Made by a program: the position numbers and the translations under genes
Shown: piece after piece, positions 21,748-60,851 of the stretch
How the letters are laid out: each line of letters opens with the position of its first letter
Numbering within the stretch: the stretch's first letter is position 1
DNA from: Myxococcales bacterium
GTDB lineage: Bacteria; Myxococcota; UBA727; GCA-2721815
Length of the DNA: 64,000 nucleotides
NCBI GenBank assembly: GCA_002721815.1
Contig: PBLQ01000045.1
Coordinates: 62,001-126,000 of the forward strand
Direction: 5' to 3'
Notes under the pieces: generated by a model
The model's input: only the letters and a program-made list of their open reading frames with translations
Told to the model about the DNA's origin: nothing
Databases searched by the model: none

Positions 21748-22392
21748 TTACGGGTTTGCAGCCACGATGGCGGCGATGTCTTCGGCCACCACTTGGGCAT
21801 GGCCCGACAGCCCGTTTGGAATTCCTGGGTCTTGATAAACAAGAATCCATTCACCGGCCGGTGAAAGCACCACCGTTTGTCGGGATGGAAACAGGGCCAT
21901 GGCCGAATCCACAATGTTGTAATAGAGCGCCAACTCCCGTTCGAGATCGCTCCACAGGTCGTAAGGAAAATCATTGCCGTTACAAAAATCCGCATTGGTG
22001 TCCACTTCATTAAAAGACACCCCGTAGATTTTGGTGTTGAGATTTTCGAAAGCATCGGCTTGATCTCGGAACCCGAGACCTTGGGTCGTTCAACCGCTCG
22101 TATTGGCCAGCGGATAAAACCACAGCACCGAAAAGTGGCCCTGTAAGGCCTCGTTGGAAACTGTTTCTCCACGGTGATTCATGACACCGCTGAACTCTGG
22201 TAAGCCACGAGGGGTGGAGGGAACTGTTCCTCGAACCTCGTCGGGAATGGTCCAAGCAGACACCGCAGACACGCCCCCGTCTGCACCGGCTTGGGCATGA
22301 AGCCCGGTGTCTTTGGGAATGTCAGATTCCGTTGCTTGGCAGGCCATCAATCCCAAAACCGCCAAAGCGCTGCACAGTGTTAACCTTACCAT
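21748..22392 (-). CDS. Putative selenocysteine-containing peroxiredoxin lipoprotein (in-frame TGA at 22090-22092)
   Basis: 214 codons in one frame with a single internal TGA at codon 101. Before it the protein reads FSVLWFYPLANTSG and after it TTQGLGFRDQADAF, matching the BCP/AhpE peroxiredoxin active site TPGCTxQACxFRD with TGA in place of the peroxidatic Cys. The usual resolving Cys five residues on is Leu here, so a 1-Sec mechanism is implied. The N-terminus is a signal peptide ending LMAC, hence a lipid-anchored envelope protein reducing peroxides. Reading continues past the TGA with normal peroxiredoxin sequence for 113 codons (PYDLWSDLERELAL, VVLSPAGEW). Start ATG overlaps the zinc-ribbon stop, with AAGGGAAA before it. 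A nonsense mutation is the alternative. Confidence 0.85.
22062..22092 (-). promoter_or_regulatory. Predicted bacterial SECIS element
   Basis: On the reverse strand the TGA (22092-22090) is followed by nine bases, then GGTCTCGG (22080-22073), loop GTT (22072-22070), and CCGAGATC (22069-22062). The stem has eight pairs, one of them G-U. The loop begins with G and lies 17 bases after the TGA, within the 16-37 base range known for bacterial SECIS elements, which recruit SelB. Inference from geometry. Confidence 0.65.
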
Positions 22393-22559
22393 TTTCCCTT
22401 AAAATCCATCATGTCTCTCATGGCATCGAGGGCGCCTTCTTCAATTTCTCCAGCCATTTCAGCCTCTTCGGCACATTCCTCGCAGAGCTTCTTCTTGCGG
22501 CCATTCACTTTGATGGCCACCACTTCGTCCACATCTTCTTTGCAACCTTGGCATTTCAT
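22386..22559 (-). CDS. Small zinc-ribbon protein
   Basis: 57 residues: MKCQGCKEDVDE, a basic turn, then KLCEECAEEAE and an acidic helical tail. Two CxxC pairs separated by about 19 residues form a likely zinc ribbon. I do not recognise a named family. ATG at 22559 has GGGAG seven bases upstream; the frame extends to 22964 but that part lies over the divergent gene and lacks such a site. Its stop overlaps the start of the selenoprotein peroxiredoxin gene (ATGGTAA), so the two are translated together and may be functionally linked. Confidence 0.7.
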   Translation of the reverse strand: MKCQGCKEDVDEVVAIKVNGRKKKLCEECAEEAEMAGEIEEGALDAMRDMMDFKGKW

Positions 22560-55807: not shown

Positions 55808-56602
55808 ATGAACAGCTGGGAAGACGCAGTGAGAGAGGTTGAGTTTTGGCTGAAGGACAAACTGTCTTTTTCTCTGCCTGCCTATAAAATCCAAAAGGTG
55901 AACCTGCAAAAATGGCGCGCCCAGCTGAACGCCGATGGCCTGTCGCGTTTGGAAGCCCTCGAAAGCAAATACGAGTTGAACCACTGGGAAAAGGTTTGTT
56001 CCGCTTCTGAATTCACTGGCAATTGCTGTTTTTTAGATATTTTGGATCGAGTGACAGCTCATGAAAAGATTCAAGGACCTGGTTTGGACATTGGCTCACG
56101 AAGCTTTTGGTACGCGCCGGCCCTCCAAGGGTTTCTACCGGGTGAGTGGTTGGGCGTCGAGCTGGACGCCAATCAACGCTACCTAACGGGCGAAACACGC
56201 AAAGGTTATGCGGAATACATGATTCGTCCCTGGCCTGCCATGCACTATCAGGCCGGTTGTTTGACGGACATCAAACCATCCTTTGGCTTCATCACGTGGT
56301 TTTTGCCCTATGTAGCCATTGAACCACTGCAGAGTTCGGGACTGCCCGAACGGTTCTTTCAACCTAAAGATTTACTGCGACACACCATGAGCCTTTTGGC
56401 AGACACTGGCTATCTCTTCATCATCAACCAAGAACGTGAAGAAGCCCAGATTCAAGAATCGTTATTCAACCAATTGGGCATTCAATTCCAGGCCCTCGGA
56501 AAAATCGACAGCGTGTTTTCGGTGTACGAAAAAGAACGCTTTGGATTCCTCGTGAGGCAAGGAGACAATATGCACCTCTCACGTGATTGTGAGCGCCCTT
56601 AA
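55808..56602 (+). CDS. Possible class I methyltransferase-like protein
   Basis: 264 residues, cytoplasmic. PGLDIGSRSFWYAP looks like a Rossmann motif I, followed by WLGVELDANQRYLTG with an acidic residue at the end of strand 2, and a later IKPSFGFITWFLPYV strand. This fits a SAM-dependent methyltransferase of unknown target, but key residues are not certain. ATG 55808; ribosome site weak. The frame continues to 55604, overlapping the HDOD gene. Confidence 0.4.
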   Translation: MNSWEDAVREVEFWLKDKLSFSLPAYKIQKVNLQKWRAQLNADGLSRLEALESKYELNHWEKVCSASEFTGNCCFLDILDRVTAHEKIQGPGLDIGSRSFWYAPALQGFLPGEWLGVELDANQRYLTGETRKGYAEYMIRPWPAMHYQAGCLTDIKPSFGFITWFLPYVAIEPLQSSGLPERFFQPKDLLRHTMSLLADTGYLFIINQEREEAQIQESLFNQLGIQFQALGKIDSVFSVYEKERFGFLVRQGDNMHLSRDCERP

Positions 56603-57447
56603 ATATCGTCGTATTCGCCAGCTTTCAGCTTTTCTAACAGTGCTAAAAAGTCTTCGTAGATAATGCCCGGTCCCTCAGGATCGTTACCGGTCTCGTCGAC
56701 AACGACTTTCATGTTATCTTTTTTGATCACGAAGCCATAGGGAACATAGGGGTAACTGCCAGCGCCCGGTTGCTCTTCAACTTTTTGGCCATCGTCATAA
56801 ATAAGCTTGGTGGTGCTGTCACCGACCCGCAGACTAAAGGTGTCATTGCCTGCATAATTGTTCACATAAGTATTCGCGTATTCATTCGTCGCTAAATTAT
56901 GCCCAGTGTCCTGCATAATCCAATAAATAACTTTTGCACCTGCCGCATCCAAAATGGCGGCATCTTCGGCAACATGCGCCATGTATTGGGGGCAATTAGG
57001 GCACCACCCAGTGGAAACAAAAACGATAAGTGCAACTTTGTCATTGTCTTCATCGCAATAAAATTCTTCAAAGCTAAATTCTGTTTGCGTCCCATCGCCC
57101 AAATAAGCATCGTCCCATGCCACCGGCGGCGCCACCTCGCCTAAAACGATGCCATCCGTGCTGAACCCTTCTGGGTACTTACAAATAGGAACACACGTCA
57201 GATCATCAATCTTGGTATTCTCCCACTTCATGCCCTCTTCACAGGAAATACATGTAAAGTTTTTGGGGTCTTCCGCGTCCTCCCATTTGAGGCCATCGAT
57301 GCACTCAAAAGACATCTCTGCGCCTTCACCTACCACTTGGCAGGTTTCTGAAGCCTCACAAAGTTCTTGATTGGTGGGCTCGGTCAGTGACTCACAGCCC
57401 AAAACAAATGATAACGCACACAAAAATCCTAAAGCCAATCGAAACAT
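56599..57447 (-). CDS. Cys-rich thioredoxin-fold lipoprotein, copy A
   Basis: 282 residues. Signal peptide ends FVLGC (Cys18). The Cys-rich N-domain has ELCEASETC followed by two similar modules, C-x-x-G-x-K-W-E about residues 49-90, ending CVPICKYPE. The thioredoxin-like domain has CPNC at 149-152 in STGWCPNCPQYM and ends with a VPYGFVIKKD strand before the last helix. It is probably a lipid-anchored envelope thiol oxidoreductase. GGAGG precedes the ATG. The most divergent of three tandem copies: it lacks the ~20-residue insert with CADxxxGTxC found in B and C. Confidence 0.8.
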   Translation of the reverse strand: MFRLALGFLCALSFVLGCESLTEPTNQELCEASETCQVVGEGAEMSFECIDGLKWEDAEDPKNFTCISCEEGMKWENTKIDDLTCVPICKYPEGFSTDGIVLGEVAPPVAWDDAYLGDGTQTEFSFEEFYCDEDNDKVALIVFVSTGWCPNCPQYMAHVAEDAAILDAAGAKVIYWIMQDTGHNLATNEYANTYVNNYAGNDTFSLRVGDSTTKLIYDDGQKVEEQPGAGSYPYVPYGFVIKKDNMKVVVDETGNDPEGPGIIYEDFLALLEKLKAGEYDDI

Positions 57448-58537: not shown

Positions 58538-59401
58538 TTATTGTGGGTCGTCGTAAACGCCACTTTTAATGTCTTCAAGAATCTGCGCAAAGTTCAGGGT
58601 GTATTGTGACGCGCTCTGGCTGGCGATGACCTGTAAAGTGTCGCGCTTCACGACGAAGGCAGTAGGAATACCACTGATGGCAGGGGAGCCATAAACGGAG
58701 CCTGCTTTGTTTTCCACCTTTTCACCATCGTCGTATTGCCATAAGGTCATCTGGTCGCCCACCCGATAGCCATGATTGTCGGGACCGATATAACTGTTGA
58801 TATAGTTTCGTGCGAGGTCGTTACTCACGGGATCTTCAACCACGTAAACAATCTCCGCACCGGCTTCTTTCAATGCGTCTGCTTCGGCACCGACCATGGC
58901 GACATAATCTGGGCAGTATCCGCACCAAGTGGCCACCACCACCATGATGAGCGCAATGTCGTCGGAATCTTCATCGCAATACCACTCTTCCATGCTGAAC
59001 CCAGCTTTGGAGCCGTCTCCGACCAGTGCCTCGGACCAAGCATAAGGCGGTGGCGCATCTGCAGCCTCACACAAAGTACCGGACTGGCCATCGGCACAAT
59101 CGTTGACAAAACCGAAGGCATTGAAATTTTCAGGGTATTTACAGATAGGCACACAAGTATGGTCGGCGTGGTCGGTATTGGCCCATTTCATGCCTTCATC
59201 ACATGTGATGCAGTTAAAGTTGGTGGGGTCGTCCATATTCTCCCATTTCATCCCCGCCACACAGTTAAAGGTGAGATCGCCTTCGGAGCCGGACACTTCA
59301 CAAGTGTCTGAAGCTTCGCAAAGCTCTTGATCGGTGGGCTCTGCCTCACAGCCGAGCGTAAAAAGTGTCAAGAAGGACAGACAAAAGAGGTACCGCACCA
59401 T
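58538..59401 (-). CDS. Cys-rich thioredoxin-fold lipoprotein, copy C
   Basis: 287 residues. Signal peptide ends FTLGC (Cys18). Same layout as copy B: ELCEASDTC, KWE modules, CVPICKYPE, CADGQSGTLCEAAD, then CGYC at 160-163 and GIPTAFVVKRD. Copies B and C are the closer pair. AGGAG lies seven bases before ATG 59401, an excellent site. Shared unusual Cys pattern shows gene duplication. Redox partner unknown; reduction from the cytoplasm would need a DsbD/CcdA-type protein elsewhere. Confidence 0.82.
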   Translation of the reverse strand: MVRYLFCLSFLTLFTLGCEAEPTDQELCEASDTCEVSGSEGDLTFNCVAGMKWENMDDPTNFNCITCDEGMKWANTDHADHTCVPICKYPENFNAFGFVNDCADGQSGTLCEAADAPPPYAWSEALVGDGSKAGFSMEEWYCDEDSDDIALIMVVVATWCGYCPDYVAMVGAEADALKEAGAEIVYVVEDPVSNDLARNYINSYIGPDNHGYRVGDQMTLWQYDDGEKVENKAGSVYGSPAISGIPTAFVVKRDTLQVIASQSASQYTLNFAQILEDIKSGVYDDPQ

Positions 59402-59638
59402 AACCACACTCCTGCAAAAAAGATAAGTCACTAACACCCACGACTATTTTGCCACCTGAAATGGATTTGTCTACGACTACTGGTGGATGCGAAACGGAAT
59501 ATTTTAAAGGCATTTCCCCCCGCCCGATCCGCATGGTCAGCCGGGCCAGCCAGTGTTGTCCTCCGCTAATGTGTTGTTTTTTATGGGAATTTAGGTTTAA
59601 CCCCCCAGACCCCTCTTTGAAAAAGAAGATTCTATCCA

Positions 59639-59696: not shown

Positions 59697-60275
59697 ATGA
59701 AGCGACACCTTTGGACCGCAGGTCTTATTTTTGTACTCAGTGCCTGTGGCACCCCCGCCGGAGATGACGCAGGAGATACCGGCGCACCGGTAGACCGGTC
59801 CGTTTATCCTGAAGGGCCTTACGGAGCAACGGAAGGCTCAGTGGTCACCAATCACAAGCTGATCACCGCCGAAGACGGTGAGTTTTATCTTGGTGCTGAC
59901 ATACGCGAAAATACAGATAACAAACTCCTTCTCATTTCCAGCGGCGCCATATGGTGCTTGGCGTGCCAAGAGGAGCAACCCAAGCTTGAGGAGCTGTACA
60001 GTGAGTATAACAGCCAGGGCCTCGAAATACTCGAGGTGATTTTCCAAGATCTCGAGGGCAATCCCGGTAACGCCGGAGACGCTCAAGCATGGCTCGATGA
60101 GTTCCAAGTTTCTTTCCCGGTGGTGGCGGACGGTGACGCCCAGTTCGATCAATATCAAGATCCCTCTTTGGCCCCACTTCTGATGCTCATTGATTTGGAC
60201 ACCATGACCATTTTAAAAAAGAGCAGTGGCTTTCAAGAATCACTCTTCACCGCTTTGATCCAAAGCAGGCTGTAA
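59697..60275 (+). CDS. TlpA-like thioredoxin-fold lipoprotein
   Basis: 192 residues. Signal peptide ends VLSAC (Cys17), then an acidic linker. The domain has CLAC at 87-90 in SSGAIWCLACQEEQPKLEEL and continues as in TlpA/AhpC-like redoxins (GLEILEVIFQD, FPVVADGDAQ); the usual TPxxxxxD segment is LAPLLMLIDLD. Likely a membrane-attached disulfide reductase or partner. AAGGAG lies five bases before ATG. It leads the forward operon. Confidence 0.8.
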   Translation: MKRHLWTAGLIFVLSACGTPAGDDAGDTGAPVDRSVYPEGPYGATEGSVVTNHKLITAEDGEFYLGADIRENTDNKLLLISSGAIWCLACQEEQPKLEELYSEYNSQGLEILEVIFQDLEGNPGNAGDAQAWLDEFQVSFPVVADGDAQFDQYQDPSLAPLLMLIDLDTMTILKKSSGFQESLFTALIQSRL

Positions 60276-60326
60276 GGCTGAATAAACACAGGGCGTGAAA
60301 CGTCCAAACGAGTGAACGGAGTCATC

Positions 60327-60851
60327 ATGAACACCCTTTTGTTGCTGAGCTTTTTAACGGCCGCATCCCTGCCCAATGCTCAGGTCGCGCCCAATCTGAA
60401 CCCTGCGGTGAAACTCAAAGATAAGCGTGATGTCATCACTGATTTCACCCTCACCGATATCAAGGGCAAAAAGGTCAAGTTGAGTGATTATAGAGACAAA
60501 GTGGTGGTGATTTCCTTTTGGGCCACTTGGTGTAAACCTTGCCTCAAAGAGCTCAAGTTCTTTCAAAAGCTTCAGAAAAAAAAGAAGGGCGCTTTTGAAA
60601 TTTTTGCCATTTCCACCGACGCACCCGATACATACGCCCGGGTCAGAGCCATGGCCAAAAAGAAGCGATGGCCCTTTGTGGTGCTCACCGATCAAGATGG
60701 TCAAGTCACCAAGACGCTCAACCCTCGAATTGCGAATCCCTACACCATCCTCGTAGACAAAAAAGGTAAGAGCGCGTACCAGCACGAAGGCTTTACTTCA
60801 GGTGATGAAAAACAATATGTTGAGTACCTCACCAAGTTAATCGCTGAATAG
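60327..60851 (+). CDS. TlpA/ResA-type thioredoxin
   Basis: 174 residues. N-terminal signal peptide (LLLLSFLTAASLPNAQ), DFTLTDIKGKKVKLSDYRDK, WCKPC at 68-72 and the NPYTILVDKKG cis-Pro strand: a classic ResA/TlpA fold. It probably reduces disulfides of exported proteins or cytochrome c. GGAG lies before ATG 60327; the frame extends to 60312. Eight bases separate it from the next gene. Confidence 0.88.
   Translation: MNTLLLLSFLTAASLPNAQVAPNLNPAVKLKDKRDVITDFTLTDIKGKKVKLSDYRDKVVVISFWATWCKPCLKELKFFQKLQKKKKGAFEIFAISTDAPDTYARVRAMAKKKRWPFVVLTDQDGQVTKTLNPRIANPYTILVDKKGKSAYQHEGFTSGDEKQYVEYLTKLIAE

Follow-up and report, generated by a model that had tools for sequence, protein, structure and literature searches.

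A predicted selenocysteine peroxiredoxin of the PrxQ type with a lipoprotein signal in a Myxococcales genome

A 64,000-nucleotide stretch of a Myxococcales genome, referred to here as the window, carries a peroxiredoxin-like reading frame interrupted by a single TGA. The question is whether this codon ends a short gene, marks a damaged one, or is read as selenocysteine (Sec) within a complete enzyme and, if so, how and where that enzyme would work. Taken whole and leaving the resolving step aside, the gene very probably encodes a lipid-anchored Sec-containing PrxQ.

The interrupted frame and its relatives

Positions 21748-22392 of the reverse strand form a single frame of 214 codons in which the TGA at codon 101 is the sole internal stop. 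Retranslation reproduced the continuous frame described in the earlier note, with a TAA at codon 215. Standard ORF calling returns two pieces, 22090-22392 (100 aa) and 21748-22020 (90 aa), which are the truncated protein and the fragment that had been expected of a naive annotation. Around 20 TGA-interrupted frames can be listed mechanically within the 64 kb window, and by inspection a redox-type motif surrounds the TGA in this one only. The main features are as follows:

21748-22392, reverse strand: predicted selenoprotein coding sequence, 214 aa with Sec101; ATG at 22390-22392, TAA stop at 21748-21750
22090-22092, reverse strand: TGA codon 101, at the peroxidatic position (PxxxTxxU) and predicted to encode Sec, from the translation and the loci of relatives
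21853-22200, reverse strand: AhpC-TSA / PrxQ-BCP peroxiredoxin domain, residues 65-180

The Pfam AhpC-TSA domain spans the TGA (residues 65-180, 77 bits, E 1.5e-21), and within this fold the Pxxx(T/S)xxC(U) motif takes the form P94-L-A-N-T98-S-G-U101. With phmmer, residue 101 is aligned with the peroxidatic Cys48 of Xanthomonas campestris PrxQ, so that the TGA does sit at the peroxidatic position, as first proposed. We have very little doubt that the window protein is a peroxiredoxin. Sec peroxiredoxins (Sec-Prx) are PrxQ/BCP-like redoxins in which Sec is the peroxidatic residue of a PxxxTxxU motif (PMC1088965, PMC13188914), and the window protein shares this organization with the known members (COG1225 / PF00578, TxxU; e.g. 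Eubacterium acidaminophilum). It differs from them in adding a lipoprotein signal, a linker and a Cys at Sec+36, and the NCBIfam PrxU model NF040737 gave no match to it at E up to 1.

Homologues with an in-frame TGA were found in 24 of 195 genomes of the phylum, the window's own genome (G000) included. In the TGA loci that were read, TGA occupies the peroxidatic codon, while the remaining homologues have TGC or TGT there; alignment with the Cys homologues, a check suggested in the earlier note, thus places their Cys codons exactly where the window has its TGA. All 24 contain selA, against 150 of 195 overall (p 0.001, not corrected for the tree). Within the window's own class, selA is found only in G000 and G011, and TGA-containing peroxiredoxins only in the same two.

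The Sec machinery is complete in G000, with tRNA-Sec, selA, selB and selD all present when looked for as the earlier note had advised. The tRNA-Sec (71.7 bits, anticodon TCA) lies directly upstream of selA (425.9 bits), which adjoins a convergent selB (270.4 bits), the three forming one cluster within 3.3 kb of each other; selD (418.9 bits) is located elsewhere. All four scores are over the family cut-offs. The selA contig and the window agree in GC content (0.516 and 0.513) and in tetranucleotide usage (r 0.949). From sequence evidence, UGA101 is almost certainly read as Sec.

Searches beyond the phylum returned distant proteins. One scan of wider genome contigs gave a distant Actinomycetota BCP as its sole match, one scan of viral sequences gave no match and another three distant peroxiredoxins only, and tblastn against plasmids and phages gave distant peroxiredoxins only. 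One phage hit (H12, Microcystis phage MW495066.1:40616-41011) is a gene annotated 'prxU: selenocysteine-containing peroxiredoxin'.

Exchange between Sec and Cys can be seen within the phylum. In family f18 one and the same orthologue is a Sec form or a Cys form, depending on the genome (L054-L069, L077 and L088-L090 against L062-L073); the Cys forms are nested within a Sec-rich clade and selA is mostly retained, which looks like recent Sec-to-Cys replacement. The Sec peroxiredoxins L083 (G074) and L087 (G072) fall outside the main Sec-Prx clade, beside Cys forms in the tree, and this position suggests a separate Cys/Sec switch.

The residue that would resolve Sec101

The best matches in fold and sequence are entries of X. 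campestris PrxQ, including its C48S and C84S mutants, and AhpE appears only from rank 23. An AhpE assignment is therefore not favoured, and of the "BCP/AhpE-type" label originally given to the protein only the PrxQ/BCP part is retained. Prx1 is likewise less close to the protein than PrxQ/BCP. NCBIfam models match the window protein below their cut-offs, which marks it as a divergent PrxQ/BCP member. The X. campestris enzyme (PDB 3gkn, 5iiz, 5iox) has the same fold, the same peroxidatic residue position, Leu at +5 and Cys at +36 (Cys48/Cys84); it differs in having Cys in place of Sec, its solved chain lacks a lipoprotein signal, and identity is about 28%. The PDB also holds a form of this protein titled LUss, which we read as the locally unfolded disulfide, alongside the C84S mutant.

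21982-21984, reverse strand: Cys137 (TGT) at Sec+36, aligned with Cys84, the resolving Cys of X. campestris PrxQ

The window protein has Leu at Sec+5, from which the earlier note had concluded that the resolving Cys was replaced and the mechanism 1-Sec. The Leu is confirmed. PrxQ/BCP proteins can carry their resolving Cys at +5 or, alternatively, in helix alpha3, and for this reason the 1-Sec conclusion does not follow from Leu at +5. Cys137 aligns with Cys84, the resolving Cys of X. campestris PrxQ, itself a +5-Leu enzyme. In an AlphaFold model Cys137 lies within helix 130-140. The model was built from the window protein and related loci (4 rows), and its confidence is modest because of this small input (mean pLDDT 62, core mostly 70-90, residues 1-61 below 50). 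The only other Cys residues are Cys7 of the signal peptide and Cys18 of the lipobox. As the +5 Leu and +36 Cys are those of X. campestris PrxQ and the mature protein has no other Cys outside the lipobox, a Sec101-Cys137 selenylsulfide is the more likely outcome and Cys137 is, on balance, the putative resolving residue.

The main competing view is that an external thiol directly reduces the selenenic acid and that Cys137 is incidental, which we regard as possible and the less likely of the two. Several comparisons speak for such a 1-Sec mechanism. Most TGA relatives have a residue other than Cys at +36, and four of them (L022, L084, L086 and L087) have no Cys at either +5 or +36, which makes it plausible that the family includes 1-Sec forms; in the Burkholderia ambifaria BCP (5enu), too, the +5 residue is Leu and a +36 Cys is lacking. 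Against it, the window protein carries the exact X. campestris pair, has no further Cys besides Cys7 and the lipidated Cys18, and shares its combination of a non-Cys +5 residue and a +36 Cys with L083. L083 is the only other TGA homologue read with a Cys at +36, and L080, which is introduced below, carries its Cys at +5, with Ala as the +36 residue; Cys137 is thus not conserved as a resolver across the clade.

If the selenylsulfide is formed, the cycle would begin with Sec101 reducing H2O2 or (lipid) hydroperoxides in the envelope and becoming a selenenic acid, which Cys137 would resolve into an intramolecular Sec101-Cys137 bond through local unfolding, in the manner of Cys48-Cys84. An envelope thioredoxin-like reductant, conceivably a redoxin lipoprotein of the same genome, might then reduce that bond. 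The differing Cys patterns at +5 and +36 among Sec peroxiredoxins form a ready-made set of variants for studying whether Sec depends on a resolving Cys.

Predicted anchoring in the envelope

The N-terminal part of the protein is divided as follows:

22342-22392, reverse strand: predicted lipoprotein signal peptide, residues 1-17 (MVRLTLCSALAVLGLMA), from sequence; the LMAC architecture is also found in L080
22339-22341, reverse strand: lipobox Cys18 (TGC), predicted lipidation site, with Gln as the +2 residue
22210-22338, reverse strand: linker, residues 19-61, of low model confidence (within the residues with pLDDT below 50)

The first 18 residues (MVRLTLCSALAVLGLMAC) comprise, as judged by eye, a basic n-region, a hydrophobic core and the lipobox L15-M16-A17-C18, in agreement with the signal peptide and LMAC lipobox that the earlier note had pointed out. 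We predict with good confidence that the protein is a lipoprotein, which the general secretion pathway would export and which would then be lipidated on Cys18. Its sister in the tree (support 94/90, both on long branches) is L080, a predicted lipoprotein Sec-Prx from G187 in another family of the phylum. L080 is similar in its LMAC lipobox, long linker, FYPLANSPGU active site and bSECIS with 8/8 pairs, and differs in the +5 and +36 residues already given, at 39% identity. The G187 genome contains tRNA-Sec.

Most of the Sec peroxiredoxins read here are simple enzymes of the cytoplasm, and the window enzyme could be supposed to be cytoplasmic as well, its N-terminus not functioning as a lipoprotein signal. 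Most Sec-Prx relatives lack an N-terminal extension, the peroxiredoxin domain starting directly, and Met is not the commonest residue at lipobox -2. However, all parts of the signal are in place, a stop codon shortly before the ATG fixes the start, L080 shares both LMAC and a long acidic/Ser-rich linker, and G000 has two further Sec redoxins with the lipoboxes LMGC and LAAC. A cytoplasmic location is very improbable. Two other Sec-Prx, L083 and L087, begin with hydrophobic stretches, possibly signal peptides, and look exported but not lipidated.

Other selenoproteins of G000 were sought via family searches, and the AhpC-TSA search identified two more TGA-interrupted members, which from their sequences are predicted lipoproteins, each combining a TSP3-like linker with a UxxC redoxin:

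L109:1222-1944 (G000:C58), also L136: second predicted Sec lipoprotein, LMGC lipobox, TSP3-like linker, FWUGSC
L110:531-1307 (G000:C21), also L141: third predicted Sec lipoprotein, LAAC lipobox, TSP3 linker, AAWUQGC

G187 has TGA-containing relatives of both, L137 and L139 for L109 and L142 for L110, so that the two lineages with a lipoprotein Sec-Prx also possess several Sec redoxin lipoproteins. Across the phylum, the search for relatives as close as these returned G000, G187 and a form without the TGA in G186, and no other genome. We tentatively consider that both lineages might have an envelope selenoproteome, in which a lipid-tethered Sec-Prx and TSP3-linker UxxC Sec redoxins would act as a joint peroxide/thiol relay outside the cytoplasm.

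Exported thioredoxin-fold selenoproteins are a known theme, represented in NCBIfam by NF041054 (ResA-like WAxxUGC) and NF045500 (Omp28-related selenoprotein). These are other families, with weak sub-threshold matches only to the second Sec lipoprotein of G000. As NCBIfam already holds other Sec redoxin families, some exported by name, the lipid-anchored case is not a new kind. The Sec-Prx family is known, whereas its lipid-anchored branch and the sister Sec lipoproteins in the same genome are little described and are the part worth following; a literature search returned no text joining lipobox with selenoprotein and selenocysteine. If the prediction is right, selenium chemistry would take place on the surface of the membrane, where peroxides of lipids form, in a role that may resemble that of animal GPX4. 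Standard annotation breaks such genes into fragments.

Two sets of neighbouring genes were also recorded. The first lies immediately upstream:

22386-22559, reverse strand: small gene of 57 aa with CxxC...CxxC, zinc-ribbon-like, sub-threshold Pfam match

The stop of this gene and the start of the peroxiredoxin gene overlap by 7 nt, which makes translational coupling of the two genes likely. A motif search did not find a homologue of it beside the other Sec-Prx genes checked. The second is a cluster of four redoxin-like genes (AhpC-TSA/Redoxin) near the window end, at 56599-57447 and 58538-59437 on the reverse strand and 59697-60275 and 60312-60851 on the forward strand. None is TGA-interrupted and one match is sub-threshold; the cluster is possibly an envelope thiol-redox module.

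The hairpin downstream of the UGA

A bacterial SECIS (bSECIS) candidate begins 9 nt past the UGA:

22062-22080, reverse strand: bSECIS hairpin GGUCUCGG-GUU-CCGAGAUC, 8 bp with a 3-nt loop G-U-U, -11.6 kcal/mol

The hairpin falls within all four of the published bSECIS criteria, namely a loop of 3-9 nt with G in the first two positions (here 3 nt, GUU), a stem of 4-16 bp (8 bp), a distance of 16-37 nt from the UGA (17 nt to the loop) and an MFE <= -7.5 (-11.6 kcal/mol) (PMC13188914). All 8 pairs are formed, and the MFE is stronger than that of 97% of synonymous recodings (p 0.034). Pairing averages 6.4/8 in Sec genes vs 4.6/8 in Cys homologues, and covariation is 0.202 vs 0.110 when shuffled (0/500), with some compensatory changes among Sec relatives, in some of which the hairpin is weaker. 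When 66 nt were folded, the result did not stand out from shuffled sequences (z -0.12), though the structure contains the same hairpin, and a bSECIS-sized stretch gave z -1.8. The sequence evidence strongly supports a scheme in which SelB and Sec-tRNA(Sec), guided by this hairpin, would decode UGA101 as Sec.

A sequencing or assembly error, or a pseudogene in which a Cys codon has turned into TGA, would need a single base change from TGC or TGT in a draft assembly of 74 contigs, but the TGA recurs at the same codon in many independent genomes, only selA-bearing ones, and here the hairpin is present and the frame elsewhere intact; we reject this reading as scarcely credible. Hardly more can be said for the UGA as a true stop, giving a 100-aa truncated lipoprotein and a separate or dead downstream ORF: TGA does terminate other frames in the window, yet the peroxiredoxin domain runs on past it, the 90-aa downstream ORF has no active site, and both the bSECIS and the Sec machinery are present. 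Because 5 of the 35 long stop-to-stop frames in the window end in an ordinary TGA, reassignment of the genetic code is ruled out.

A hairpin region is also found after the UGA of the third Sec lipoprotein, L110, and of its relative L142, which share a GGUC-bearing version of it (a GGGUC loop region in L110).
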